Shown here: positions 29,138-55,465 of the stretch, one piece after another
Numbering within the stretch: position 1 is the first letter of the stretch
Layout: each line of letters begins with the position of its first letter
From: Branchiostoma floridae
Lineage: Eukaryota; Chordata; Leptocardii; Amphioxiformes; Branchiostomatidae
Assembly: GCF_000003815.2 (NCBI RefSeq)
Contig: NC_049989.1
Location: 10,309,382 to 10,373,381 of the forward strand
DNA length: 64,000 nucleotides
Direction of reading: 5' to 3'
Notes under the pieces: generated by a model
Databases searched by the model: none
What the model was told of the DNA's origin: nothing
The model's input: the letters and a program-made list of their open reading frames with translations, nothing else
Program-made: the position numbers and the translations under genes

Positions 29138-30133
29138 ATGAAAGTAAGTGGACTGTTACTGATCGCTACGTTGGTATCTATGGGGTCGGGTTGCTATTGT
29201 CTGCCAGCTAACTGTGAGATACAGCACAGTTCTTACTTTCAAACATCAGCCGTTGATTGTAATTTTCTGAAACTTACTGCAATTCCTGAGGGCATACCAT
29301 CCAACGCTGAACGACTTCTGGTCAAGTTCAATAACATCGCAAGCGTAACCAAGCTGCCGCAACTACCGAAACTGCAAGTGCTAAACCTAGGCAGGAACTC
29401 CATTGAATCGTTTTCCTGGGTGTCGTTTCGGACTCTGCCATGTTTGAAGTATTTATACTTAAACTATAACCAACTACGGTACGTGCGTTTGGGGAGCGTC
29501 ATTGAGTATTTGCCGAAGCTGACTCACGTTGATGTCAGTTTTAACAAGCTCACGTCGCTGTCTGAATACGAAGTGGGGTTGCCACAGGTGACCGCGGTCT
29601 GGATCGAGGGAAACCCTTTTCACTGTGACTGCAACCTGTCCTGGCTGATAGGCAAGATGGTGTGCTTACAGGCCTGCAAGGGGAAAGATCGGCAGGCCTG
29701 TTGCCGGTCGTGTTCAGCCTGTTTTGTTGCCGACTACCCAAAATATGCAAACAGGGCTGCCTGCAACAGTCCAAGTCGACTGAATCGGTTGCCTTTGTCG
29801 AACGTATCCACCCAGTTGACTTGTGAACTCCACCAGTCGACCACAAGAGCCGCCATGGCCCCAGCAAATGGGAGTCCAAAAGCTGGGCAGTCTCAGGAAA
29901 TAGCAACCAGCTTCGTGCAAGTGAGCCCTCATCATGACACCAGCTCCAAACTAACTGAGCATAACAAGGACGCAGGTACAAATACTTCTGGCCCCATCGA
30001 CGGTTCAGGTGCGGGTAAATCCAAAATGGCAAACGGAATGATAATCACTCATCGACACATTTTACTCAGCACCATGGCAGGGACGATGGGTTTCCTGACT
30101 ACGATGATAATGTGCTATCGCCTGAAGAAGTAA
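29138..30133 (+). CDS. LRR transmembrane protein, paralog 1 (short tail)
   Basis: 331 residues in one exon. I chose ATG 29138 because it gives a clean signal peptide (MKVSGLLLIATLVSMGSGCY) and matches the paralog start; the frame is open 22 codons further upstream. Domains: signal peptide about 1-20; short Cys-containing LRR N-cap; about four leucine-rich repeats (LQVLNLGRNSIESF, LKYLYLNYNQLRYV, LTHVDVSFNKLTSL) to about 155; C-cap NPFHCDCNLSWL with extra clustered Cys (CLQACKG..QACCRSCSAC); Ser/Thr-rich stalk; C-terminal TM (LLSTMAGTMGFLTTMIMCY), then RLKK and stop. Probably a cell-surface ligand-binding protein. GAA|GTAATG at the stop codon could act as a donor, so a longer form is possible. 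Confidence 0.85.
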   Translation: MKVSGLLLIATLVSMGSGCYCLPANCEIQHSSYFQTSAVDCNFLKLTAIPEGIPSNAERLLVKFNNIASVTKLPQLPKLQVLNLGRNSIESFSWVSFRTLPCLKYLYLNYNQLRYVRLGSVIEYLPKLTHVDVSFNKLTSLSEYEVGLPQVTAVWIEGNPFHCDCNLSWLIGKMVCLQACKGKDRQACCRSCSACFVADYPKYANRAACNSPSRLNRLPLSNVSTQLTCELHQSTTRAAMAPANGSPKAGQSQEIATSFVQVSPHHDTSSKLTEHNKDAGTNTSGPIDGSGAGKSKMANGMIITHRHILLSTMAGTMGFLTTMIMCYRLKK

Positions 30134-33638: not shown

Positions 33639-34737
33639 ATGAAAGTAAGTGAATTGTTGCTGCTCTTTGCGTTGGGATCTCTGTGGTCGGTTAGCTCTTG
33701 TCTGTCAGCAAAATGTGACATGCGAAAGCCAGTGGTTGATTGTGATCATCAAGACCGTGTCACGATTCTGGATGATGTACCGTCCAATGCGTCCATCAAA
33801 CGTCTTTCTGCAAGGTCCAATAACATCAGAAAAGTAACCAACTTGCCTCAACTACCAAAATTACATACATTGGACCTTGGCTGGAACTCTATTGAATCCT
33901 TTTCATGGACGTCGTTGCGCGCTCTGCCACGTTTGCGTAGACTTCATTTAAATGAAAACCGACTACGGTACGTGCAACTGGAAAGCGTCATTGAGTATTT
34001 GCCGGAGCTGACAATCGTTGATGTAAGTTTTAACGAACTCACGTCGCTGTCTCAGAACGAACTGGGGTTGCCACAGGTGACTGCGTGGTATATCAAGGAA
34101 AACCCATTTCACTGTGACTGCGACCTCTTTTGGCTGATTGACAAGATGGCGTGTTTACAGGCCTGTAATGGGAAAGGCAAAGTGCTCTGTTGCCTATCAT
34201 GTTCGGCCTGTTATCTTGGCAATTGCAACCTGAAAGGTACAGTCTGTCGCACCCCGGCTGAACTGAACCGGCTGTCGCTATCAAACGTGTCAACCCAGCT
34301 GCCATGTGGACCGCACCAGCCGACCATGAAAGCTACCATGGCCCTTTCGGTTCAGGCTAAGAGTGAAGTCACTGCTGGCAAGTCTCAATCTATGGGAACC
34401 AGCGTCCCTCAAGGAAGTCCCCGCTATGACAACAGACCAAAACCAACTGAGCATAACAATATTACAGATACCCTTACGGGTTGTGAACAACCCAAGCCGA
34501 CCACAAAAACTATCATGGCCACTACTGATGAGGCTAAAAGTGAGCGACAACACAATGACACTTCTACCCAGTCCATGAGTAACAGGAAACAGGAAGATGA
34601 CGCGTTTCCTGTTCTCTACATCCCCGTCATCGTAATCGGAAGCTTCTTGGCTTGTAGCTTCCTGGGTTTGATCTTCATCTTCTGCTTAGTCGGGACTATG
34701 AAACACTGCCACCACCACCGCCCAGAAGCCAACATGG
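33639..34737 (+). CDS. LRR paralog 2 exon 1 (ectodomain and TM)
   Basis: 366 codons plus one base. Unspliced, the frame would end at TAA 34770-34772 after MGLFVLLLGIRW, which could be a short-tailed retained-intron form resembling paralog 1. The donor G|GTTTGT is weaker than consensus, so regulated splicing is conceivable. Confidence 0.8.
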
Positions 34738-36937
34738 GTTTGTTTGTTTTATTACTAGGAATCCGGTGGTAATTCTAGTGATTATTTATTAGGAAACGTG
34801 TCGAAATCTTCCTTCCAATACCATTTATATCAAAATGCTGTATAGATCATTTACAATTATACATTACCATTCAATCATATATCATAAAAAAGTTATATTA
34901 CATCAAAATACTACCGTACTACAATCTGTCAGTCTAAAATGCATGTGATTTTATACATTGTCTTTGAGATACCGTGTCTGAAATTACATTAATTCAAGCA
35001 TATGATTTTACTTTCTACCGAAAATAATTTCATCAGGTTGATAGAACATAGGACATAAGAATTTTCTCTTACACAACCAGTTTTTCAAGGGGGGTACAAG
35101 CTCAGCCACGTTTGGGATAGTCTTCTTGCCGCTAAAGCGCCACCTACATCGGCTACATATAGCGGCAAGAAGCAGAACTCCAGTTAGAAGCTCTGAGGAA
35201 GATGTCTGACAGACATCGAAACGTCAGCAGGTGAGAAAAACTGGTTGTGTAAGAGAAAATTCTTATGTCCGATTTTACTTTCTAGTTATAACGATATCAT
35301 TGGGTCACAGAGACGGTCTTATATTACAAGTTTACAACATTAGGAGATTACCACCATGCATAAATATGGATTCTTTCAGGTGTGTATGTCTGTATGTGTG
35401 TGCATAGCTTTAGAACCTATGCACGTATCGTGCTGATATTTGGTATGTGGGAAGACGATGGAAAAGAAGTAGGTGTTGGTCACTTCTGGGCTACCTGGTG
35501 TTTGGTTTTGGTACTGCAGTAAAACCTATATGTTAGGAATTAATTTGGAATTGCAGAGCCGTTTTTTTTTAATCATCCGAAGAGGATTACAAAGAAATGA
35601 CATAGACATCAATGATATCAATGATAATAAGCATGCAAGTAGATTAGTCCACTGACTTTTCTTGCTTAATTGATGATATTAGGAAACTGTACATTGTTTT
35701 CAATACTAGAACTTGAAATTCTACCAAAGTTTGAGCTTCCCGCATACAAAATAAAGTTGTATAACTTGATAATAGAATACCGTCATTGAATTAATTATGT
35801 TGATGACATTTGCATAATCAATATAAAAATGCCATTCTTCAATTGTGGCAAATAGTTTGTTGAAGGTGAAAGTCAAAATGCACAGATTATGTAAATGTGC
35901 CAGTGATTGGAATAAACAGTTCATACTGTATATATTTCATCATACACTGTATCTTTGCAGGAGTTGTTATCCACGGAAACCCAGCTGTCAATCATATTGC
36001 AGGAGCTGTCAATCAGGGACCCTTAGCAGTCAGTCAAATCACACCACCAATAGTGAACTCCCTCTACCACCGCGGCGCTGAGGAAGAAGTTCTACATTAC
36101 TACCATTACTACCAAACTACGGAAGATGTGAACCAAACTCCGGAAGATGCAACCCAAACTCCGGAAGATGCAACCCAAACTCCGGAAGATGCAACCCAAA
36201 CTCCGGAAGATGCAACCCAAACTCCGGAAGATGCAACCCAAAGTCCGGAAGATGCAGCCCAAACTCCGGAAGATGCAACCCAAACTCCGGAAGATGCAAC
36301 CCAAACTCCGGAAGATGCAACCCAAACTCCGGAAGATGCAACCCAAACTCCGGAAGATGCAACCCAAAGTCCGGAAGATGCAGCCCAAACTCCGGAAGAT
36401 GCAACCCAAACTCCGGAAGATGCAACCCAAACTCCGGAAGATGCAACCCAAACTCCGGAAGATGCAAACCAAACTCCAGAAGATGCAACCCAAACTCCGG
36501 AAGATGCAACTGGAGAAGGTACTGTCTCAAATCACGGATACCCAACGATTCCGCTCATCGAGAATCACCGTGTGGAATCTAATATTATGCACGGCAATTC
36601 CCAAGCACCAATTTCTTCATCCCGTTTGTACGTGTCATCGAATTATGTTAACTCAGCGAACACTTGTACTGACGAAGGTTTAACTTATGGTCTCCAAGTG
36701 GCTTCTGAATCTGATGACGCGGCGAGTGAACCCATATATGGCAGGTACTCAAAACCAGTCATTACGTCATCCAGGCTGTACACGTCACCGGAAAACAACT
36801 TGACAAACCTCAGTACCTCAGGACGCACTGTAACTCTACCTGGTGGGTTGTCCAGTGAACCAATATATGGCACGCGTTCGCAAGCAACAACAGTTACATC
36901 CAGGCTGTACAACATGTGTGAGAGAGACTCATGCTAA
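33639..36937 (+). CDS. LRR transmembrane receptor, paralog 2 (long repeat-bearing tail; spliced)
   Basis: Two exons, 33639-34737 and 35961-36937, give about 691 residues. Exon 1: signal peptide (MKVSELLLLFALGSLWSVSS), N-cap, about four LRRs (LHTLDLGWNSIESF, LRRLHLNENRLRYV, LTIVDVSFNELTSL), C-cap NPFHCDCDLFWL with a Cys cluster (CLSCSACYLGNC), Ser/Thr-rich stalk, TM at about 324-351 (VLYIPVIVIGSFLACSFLGL), then HCHHHRPEAN. The frame would stop 11 codons later. Instead, donor ATGG|GTTTGT joins acceptor TCTTTGCAG|GA in matching phase 1, which fits a full cytoplasmic tail. The tail holds 19 heptads (about residues 419-551) and repeated tyrosine motifs. Clearly a paralog of 29138-30133. Ligand unknown; a signalling receptor is inferred. 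Confidence 0.8.
35019..35270. mobile_element. Repeat with hammerhead-like core, copy 2 (in LRR2 intron)
   Basis: Bounded by inverted repeats GGACATAAGAATTTTCTCTT and AAGAGAAAATTCTTATGTCC, both continuing into an ACACAACCAGTTTTT pair. The centre has GCGGCAAGAAGCAGAACTCC, then CTGAGGA (35193-35199), hairpin GATGTC/GACATC, GAAA (35218-35221) and CGTC. Confidence 0.7.
35961..36937 (+). CDS. LRR paralog 2 exon 2 (cytoplasmic tail)
   Basis: 324 codons then TAA (36935-36937). Begins GVVIHGNPAVNHIAGAVNQG, then His/Tyr-rich YHYYQ, 19 units of TPEDATQ type, and a C-terminal part with two EPIYG and three SRLY motifs (EPIYGRYSKPVITSSRLYTS; EPIYGTRSQATTVTSRLYNM). Tyrosines in such repeated contexts are candidate phosphorylation sites. 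No kinase, TIR or death domain is present. Confidence 0.78.
36116..36514 (+). repeat. Coding minisatellite, 19 x 21 bp
   Basis: Unit ACTCCGGAAGATGCAACCCAA encodes TPEDATQ. Unit 1 is TTEDVNQ, units 7 and 13 are SPEDAAQ, unit 17 ends ANQ and unit 19 ends ATG. Units 2-7 and 8-13 form an identical six-unit (126-bp) higher-order pair. The length is a multiple of three throughout, so copy changes keep the receptor frame. Open frames on the other strand and frames are by-products. Confidence 0.95.
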
Positions 36938-37599
36938 CTGTATTGATGAGACCATCAGAACGACGTACAAAACCGTACAATGTAGAAGAACAGCATATTA
37001 TGTCCAAAGTAGACATCATGGTCACTTGTAGGACCACATGATTTACAATGTAGACATCCCTTGTACAGTGCCACCGTATAGGACTCTTAGCCACGTGATT
37101 TTCAATGTGCACATCACTTCTGCAGTGCCACTGTATAGGGCACATAGCAGCATGATTCTGAATGAAGGCGTCACTGGTACCGTGCCACTAAAATTGTGTG
37201 TGTGTGTGTGGCTTGGTCTGGTACTGAAAATCCACTGCAGCGGAATACAACTGTGCATGCTAAGAGGACCCTTGTGGCTCGGCCAAGTACTAGCCCCTCG
37301 TGTGTTTAGATTTTTTTCAAATTGCCATGTGCTTAGCCAACGTTTCAGTGGCTGTCTTTCTCCTCCCCCAATGCAATACTTTCTGGTTCTACTTCTGACT
37401 GCCGCTAGGTGTCGCTATTGCAGCGTGAAGACTCAGTCGGAGACCGCAATATGATGAAACTGAATTTATTTACTAAAGTAGGGTGAAAGGAAGTCAACGC
37501 CACAAACTGATACAAAAAAAAATGTTTGAATGTTTACAAATGTATTTGTATGTAAATGTATCTTGGTTTACAGGTATTGTAGAAGTTTTCGATATACGT

Positions 37600-46732: not shown

Positions 46733-55465
<8,733 letters not shown>

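Follow-up and report, generated by a model that had tools for sequence, protein, structure and literature searches.

Gene model

The window, that is, the whole 64,000-nucleotide stretch of Branchiostoma floridae DNA analysed here (C11:10309382-10373381), was searched against its assembly (513 Mb, 431 contigs). It contains what looks like a lancelet cell-surface receptor gene of two exons, with a 19-copy 21-base repeat in its inner tail (Table 1). The first frame begins with an ATG at 33639 and remains open until a stop at 34770-34772. Its N-terminus is a hydrophobic stretch (Kyte-Doolittle mean 1.81 at residue 6, 19-residue window), a single membrane span was predicted at residues ~330-348 (hydropathy mean 2.68), and the Pfam matches to LRR_4 (E 5.3e-9) and LRR_8 (E 1.4e-8) both exceeded the cut-off. 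The LRR ectodomain with signal peptide and transmembrane segment that a first-pass annotation had proposed was thus borne out. Joined together, the two exons encode a predicted product of 691 amino acids, with the frame open throughout. Judged from its sequence, the predicted gene model is well supported, and the encoded protein is best explained as a type I membrane receptor from a family of LRR proteins that has expanded in the genome of this lancelet. The germline ectodomain frame is complete, and so differs from the incomplete germline gene with somatic LRR-cassette assembly by which variable lymphocyte receptors (VLRs) are defined.

Table 1. Features of the receptor locus, in window coordinates
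Feature	Position	Strand	Basis
Neighbouring relative with membrane span and tail of ~5 residues	29138..30130	+	Pfam LRR_4, E 9.5e-17
Predicted exon 1: signal peptide, LRR region, cysteine-rich C-terminal part, Ser/Thr-rich stalk, membrane span, His-rich juxtamembrane residues	33639..34737	+	Open frame, Pfam, hydropathy, genome matches
Predicted intron, phase 1, donor G/GTTTGTT, acceptor tttgcag/GAG	34738..35960	+	Conserved donor and acceptors in relatives
MITE-like element lying within the intron but separate from the receptor; arms are 42-nt inverted repeats (95% complementary) spaced 148 nt apart	35045..35276	.	Inverted-repeat arms
Predicted exon 2: cytoplasmic tail, 325 residues including the shared codon, ending in TAA	35961..36937	+	Homology to relatives' tails
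Membrane-proximal tyrosine-rich part, PPIVNSLY to LHYYHYY	36044..36112	+	Alignment; limits counted by hand
19.0 x 21-bp array, (T/S)PEDA(T/A/N)Q heptads, units 2-7/8-13 duplicated	36112..36510	+	Tandem Repeats Finder, unit listing
Distal tail, SEPIYG twice, SRLY three times, C-terminal SRLYNMC	36511..36934	+	Translation

Two further elements were seen in the window. A degenerate 57-bp tandem repeat of 2.3 copies lies at 37036-37164, ~100 bases past the receptor stop codon, and a Sulfotransferase-domain fragment (Pfam Sulfotransfer_1, E 8.9e-9) lies on the minus strand at 46736-47122.

Splice junction and tail exon

The annotation had placed an in-phase splice between 34737 and 35961. The donor ATGG/GTTTGT after 34737 and the acceptor TTTGCAG/GAG before 35961 are both in phase 1. 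As many alternative GT/AG pairs likewise preserve the frame across the two exons, this pair was chosen for its conservation in relatives. The donor G/GTTTGTT was found at the end of the ectodomain exon in eight loci (the window gene, L035, L036, L038, L039, L040, L041, and L049), a count that is biased because these loci were selected by looking at exon ends and that should not be read as an unbiased eight of eight. The tail exon was read in five of them: the window gene, L038, L039, L040, and L049. In each of these four relatives, the ectodomain exon has a homologous tail exon behind it, which is preceded by a matching acceptor and contains PPIxNS(L/K) or a near form of it; four further tail exons with matching acceptors were found in L072. 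No tail exon was found for L035, L036, or L041 in the sequence stretches examined, and in L036 the donor is reached in a different phase. The relatives with a matching donor and acceptor have ectodomains just ~53-61% identical to that of the window gene. The shared splice sites and homologous tail exons uphold the proposed junction, and exon 2 is very likely part of the LRR gene.

The 21-bp array

Tandem Repeats Finder confirmed the annotated 19 x 21-bp array (period 21, 19.0 copies, score 728, 95% matches). Unit 1 (QTTEDVN) is degenerate, and the remaining 18 read (T/S)PEDA(T/A/N); the heptad (T/S)PEDA(T/A)Q given previously therefore stands for 18 of the 19 units, with the first excepted and N added as a variant. 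Fourteen of the 19 units are identical. Units 2-7 form a six-unit block repeated as units 8-13, and both blocks end with the variant CCAAAGTCCGGAAGATGCAGC, so the higher-order duplication noticed earlier is real. Also as annotated, the array is acidic and Ser/Thr-Pro-rich: its 133 residues comprise T 33, A 20, Q 19, E 19, D 19, and P 18, with no K, R, or H (38 acidic, 0 basic), and (T/S)P occurs in 18/19 units. The unit being 21 bp, any whole-unit change in copy number keeps the frame, again in agreement with the annotation. The expected polymorphism is presumed, since the copy-number differences within one assembly are between paralogues only, and the copy number itself may be misassembled.

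None of the units has a stop in any frame, and the openness of the array alone therefore proves little; it is the open, homologous flanks that provide the evidence, and on these a non-coding minisatellite was rejected. A search for the array dimer (three mismatches or fewer) gave 17 matches in the assembly, every one within this array, and the backward control gave 0. The unit is unique to this gene within the assembly, by which a family-wide device was rejected.

Tail layout and related tails

PPIVNSLY and LHYYHYY in the window tail aligned with PPIxNSLY and LHYYHSS in relatives, and SRLYNMC was found near the tail end in the window gene, L040, and L049. Excluding the array, the window tail shares 44% identity with that of L040 and 33% with that of L049; its match to L020, which is the same gene as L040, had an E value of 5.5e-24. 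The distal tail had two other matches only in the genome search, and matches to the tails of single-frame relatives were weak (E 0.06 to 1.6 for the three found in the tail search, L026, L028, and L016). On these comparisons, close relatives of the window tail appear to be few, and statements about tails across the family may not all hold for it. Outside the array, dN/dS was 0.56 against L040 and 0.70 against L049, at a dS of ~1.1, which is near saturation.

The array starts in LHYYHYYQTTEDVNQ, which by eye is the counterpart of LHYYHSSDTEENQTS in L040. This suggests that the linker behind LHYYHSSDTEENQTS was amplified in the window gene with a 7-residue unit. No TIR match was obtained for the tail in Pfam up to E 1, and the gene is thus not a Toll-like receptor by that definition. 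A TIR or other known domain was rejected, the matches to Alanine_zipper and Mitofilin being below cut-off and on the repeat.

Tail arrays across the receptor family

A genome search with the ectodomain gave at least 112 matches, the best paralogue showing 59% identity (E 8.5e-88). We defined the family by a homologous LRR ectodomain, a MKVSGLLLL-type signal, and a cysteine-rich C-terminal part, all of which the window gene has; it also has the phase-1 donor G/GTTTGTT and the homologous tail exon that define the two-exon branch. Tails were surveyed in 42 of the best 43 of the 112 matches, including the window gene and its neighbour; C18:4269561 was read only as part of the cluster described below. 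A single open frame covers ectodomain, membrane span, and at least 100 residues of tail in 20 of the 42 loci.

Excluding units of 3 bp or shorter, scores below 50, and overlapping rows, we counted 19 arrays in 19.9 kb of tail sequence, in 16 of the 42 genes, against 1 in 40.1 kb of ectodomain sequence and 33 in 133 kb of the rest of the loci. The period was divisible by 3 in 18 of the 19 tail arrays; for the 33 arrays in the remaining sequence of these loci the figure was 11, which is the chance level (Fisher p 1.1e-5 for the difference). The window gene had been chosen for its array, and without it there remain 18 tail arrays in 15 of 41 loci; some of the arrays are common by descent, so that the 19 are not 19 independent events. 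Arrays may also gather in tails merely because disordered tails tolerate them.

The units differ among relatives. The single-frame relative L046 (C7:17534500-17538500) has a 21-bp array of 20.5 copies encoding VNHGHQP, whose letters are unrelated to the window unit, and the same unit has 5.5 copies in L051. A 30-residue module, LHYYHSSDTDENQTSAPT, is present in 9.5 copies in L038, 9.0 in L049, ~3 in one L072 tail exon, and 1 in L040, and L047 has 4.1 copies of a 25-residue HIYENP module. In L038 (C18:4556500-4562200), a single ectodomain exon is accompanied by three candidate tail exons, and the 90-bp x 9.5 array is in the third of these. Close paralogues thus differ widely in copy number. Outside the array, L040 and L049 show 79% tail identity (dS 0.21, dN/dS 0.55) while their copies number 1 and ~9, which indicates that copy number evolves faster than the flanks.

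Short- and long-tailed neighbours

The gene at 29138-30130 is 52% identical to exon 1 in pairwise alignment, and over the first 240 residues the two window genes are 60% identical. A short-tailed gene lies upstream of a long-tailed one on the same strand in three pairs: 29138/33639 in the window, C18:4194075/4199577, and C18:4821869/4830573. A broken ectodomain fragment separates the two genes of the third pair. The upstream members of the three pairs have a common type of membrane span and tail. In trees with six short-tailed and seven long-tailed genes, a topology that kept the short-tailed genes in one group was worse by 154.6 log-likelihood units (AU p 3.8e-6). This group had been defined once a first tree was available, and L049 was omitted from the trees because its first 73 residues do not align. 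Ectodomains therefore do not appear to follow tail type in these trees, a mismatch that gene conversion or tail exchange would explain. Short-tailed L033 is 76% identical to its long-tailed neighbour L040 and equally 76% to short-tailed L032, suggesting that neighbours are not always nearest relatives.

A cluster on C18

At C18:4259531-4283946 (L036, L041, L035, L019, L039, and L072), five tandem ectodomain-plus-membrane exons (4259531 to 4273504) are followed by seven tail-exon homologues (4276905 to 4283946), and no significant tail-exon match was found between the five ectodomain exons. The six readable tail-exon homologues all end in stops and would for that reason be alternative terminal exons. 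The ectodomain exons are ~90% alike and the starts of their introns equally so, which means that donor retention in the cluster says little; in the exon at 4259531 the donor is reached in a shifted phase. Poly(A)-like signals were found within 1.5 kb of each of the five ectodomain exons. From this layout, a protocadherin-like locus is possible. In the available part of its description (PMC4978886), the clustered protocadherin arrangement likewise has several ectodomain-plus-membrane exons followed by tail exons, but the C18 cluster differs in encoding LRRs rather than cadherins and in that each tail exon read ends in a stop. The window gene, with one ectodomain exon and one tail exon, differs from that arrangement.

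Tail tyrosines

Tyrosine contexts were counted in 24 long tails; L038, left out of this set, was included in the array count, where L035, L036, and L041 were scored as short. I, V, or L directly before Y occurred in 97 distinct contexts, compared with 33.1 (sd 5.0) in shuffles, and Y..P (30 vs 12.0) and Y..E/D (44 vs 31.2) also exceeded them, all these counts being inflated by the common descent of tails. In the same 24 tails, Y..M (1 vs 3.2) and Y.N (18 vs 17.1) were not enriched, and canonical ITIMs (4 vs 12.0), ITAM halves (9 vs 22.3), and ITSMs (0 vs 2.6) were below shuffled counts, by which a canonical ITIM, ITAM, or ITSM tail was rejected. Canonical ITIMs are present in five of the 24 tails, the distinct ones being fewer than in shuffles. 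The window tail has 14 tyrosines, including one YVN and one YTSP context; by eye, none of the 14 contexts matched the canonical ITIM, (I/V/L/S/T)xYxx(L/V/I).

Discussion

BbLcLRR of Branchiostoma belcheri (GenBank MW390887) is a previously reported LRR membrane receptor of a lancelet; its tail is phosphorylated on tyrosines, Y539, Y655, and Y690 being Lck sites (PMC8211107). Compared by the available part of its description, BbLcLRR resembles the window protein in its lancelet LRR ectodomain, single membrane span, and long tyrosine tail, and in length (699 vs 691 amino acids). It differs in domain content, SMART having given a WSC domain besides one LRR and three LRR_TYP, whereas a WSC domain was not matched in the window protein up to E 1. 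The ITIM-like motifs of BbLcLRR (DDYATV, HDYSEV, and HDYDDP) are absent from the window tail, and that part of the description mentions no array (PMC8211107). A second B. floridae protein, VLR-like Bf66946, binds Gram-positive bacteria (PMC4731796, in part). By its description there it is similar to the window ectodomain in being a short lancelet LRR solenoid with cysteine caps, but it was selected as an LRR-only protein, unlike the window receptor. No chain named Bf66946 was found among the 60 of 251 PDB matches listed for the window ectodomain. The exon-3 VNTR of dopamine receptor D4, as partly described in PMC3164202, is like the window array an in-frame minisatellite in the cytoplasmic part of a membrane receptor; it has a 48-bp unit and lies in the third intracellular loop of a GPCR, making this a comparison of working principle only.

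The annotation had called the gene the best candidate for a new receptor type in the window. The few close relatives of its tail agree with this in part; the 112 ectodomain matches, the relative at 29138-30130, the known BbLcLRR (PMC8211107, in part), and the recurrence of tail repeats do not. Among the open-licence papers listed by literature searches, no title or beginning of an abstract described tail minisatellites in lancelet LRR receptors.

We favour the view, with reasonable though limited confidence, that the gene encodes an immunoreceptor-like protein that would signal via the tyrosines of its tail, where the acidic Thr-Pro array would serve as a disordered spacer able to expand. The ectodomain would bind a microbial or self surface ligand. 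Clustering of the receptor would then allow a Src-family kinase to phosphorylate the tail tyrosines and SH2 proteins to be recruited; by analogy with the BbLcLRR tail tyrosines that serve as Lck sites (PMC8211107, in part), such SH2 docking is the likeliest mode of signalling. The TPEDATQ array, which in the predicted protein separates the tyrosines next to the membrane from the distal tyrosine motifs, would most likely be a disordered, acidic spacer that tolerates changes in length and offers many Thr-Pro sites. A short linker, which other relatives would have amplified at a different unit length, probably gave rise to it through slippage or unequal exchange.

The serious rival is a selectively neutral array: a disordered tail would tolerate any in-frame repeat, and TPEDATQ would contribute nothing to function. 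We regard this as quite conceivable. The identity of 14 of the 19 units is expected for recent turnover, other family members have different units or none, and the unit is absent elsewhere in the genome. Against it stand the dN/dS of 0.55-0.70 outside the arrays and several C18 tail exons in which a counterpart of the linker segment was amplified, but both are compatible with neutrality of the array all the same. Less probably, the array could be a functional module, either a PEST-type degradation signal or a multi-site Ser/Thr kinase platform, with a strength that scales with copy number. Its composition of mainly T, A, Q, E, D, and P, free of K, R, and H, and the near-universal (T/S)P fit such a module, whereas the occurrence of the unit at no other place in the genome argues against a general family device. 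It is hardly credible that exon 2 comes from another gene, or that the LRR gene terminates at the stop of its first frame (34770-34772) with the array left non-coding: the frame past the donor would give a short tail to 34772, and a short isoform is possible, but the splice sites match and homologous tail exons sit downstream in relatives.

A broader proposal, which we put forward only tentatively and consider rather unlikely at present, is that the signalling tail, and not the ligand-binding part alone, is the fast-diversifying half of these receptors. Tyrosine and spacer modules would grow as in-frame minisatellites, and in at least one cluster ectodomain exons would share a bank of alternative tail exons, as in protocadherins. 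If true, the latter arrangement would mix recognition and signalling parts within one locus. Adjacent short- and long-tailed genes could be compared with the paired receptors of vertebrates.

Studies of immune receptors mostly seek diversity in the ligand-binding part. The recurring in-frame tail repeats are a part of this family worth following. If a family keeps its germline ectodomains complete while its tails acquire in-frame repeats, the strength or reach of signalling would be a countable trait, testable via repeat number.
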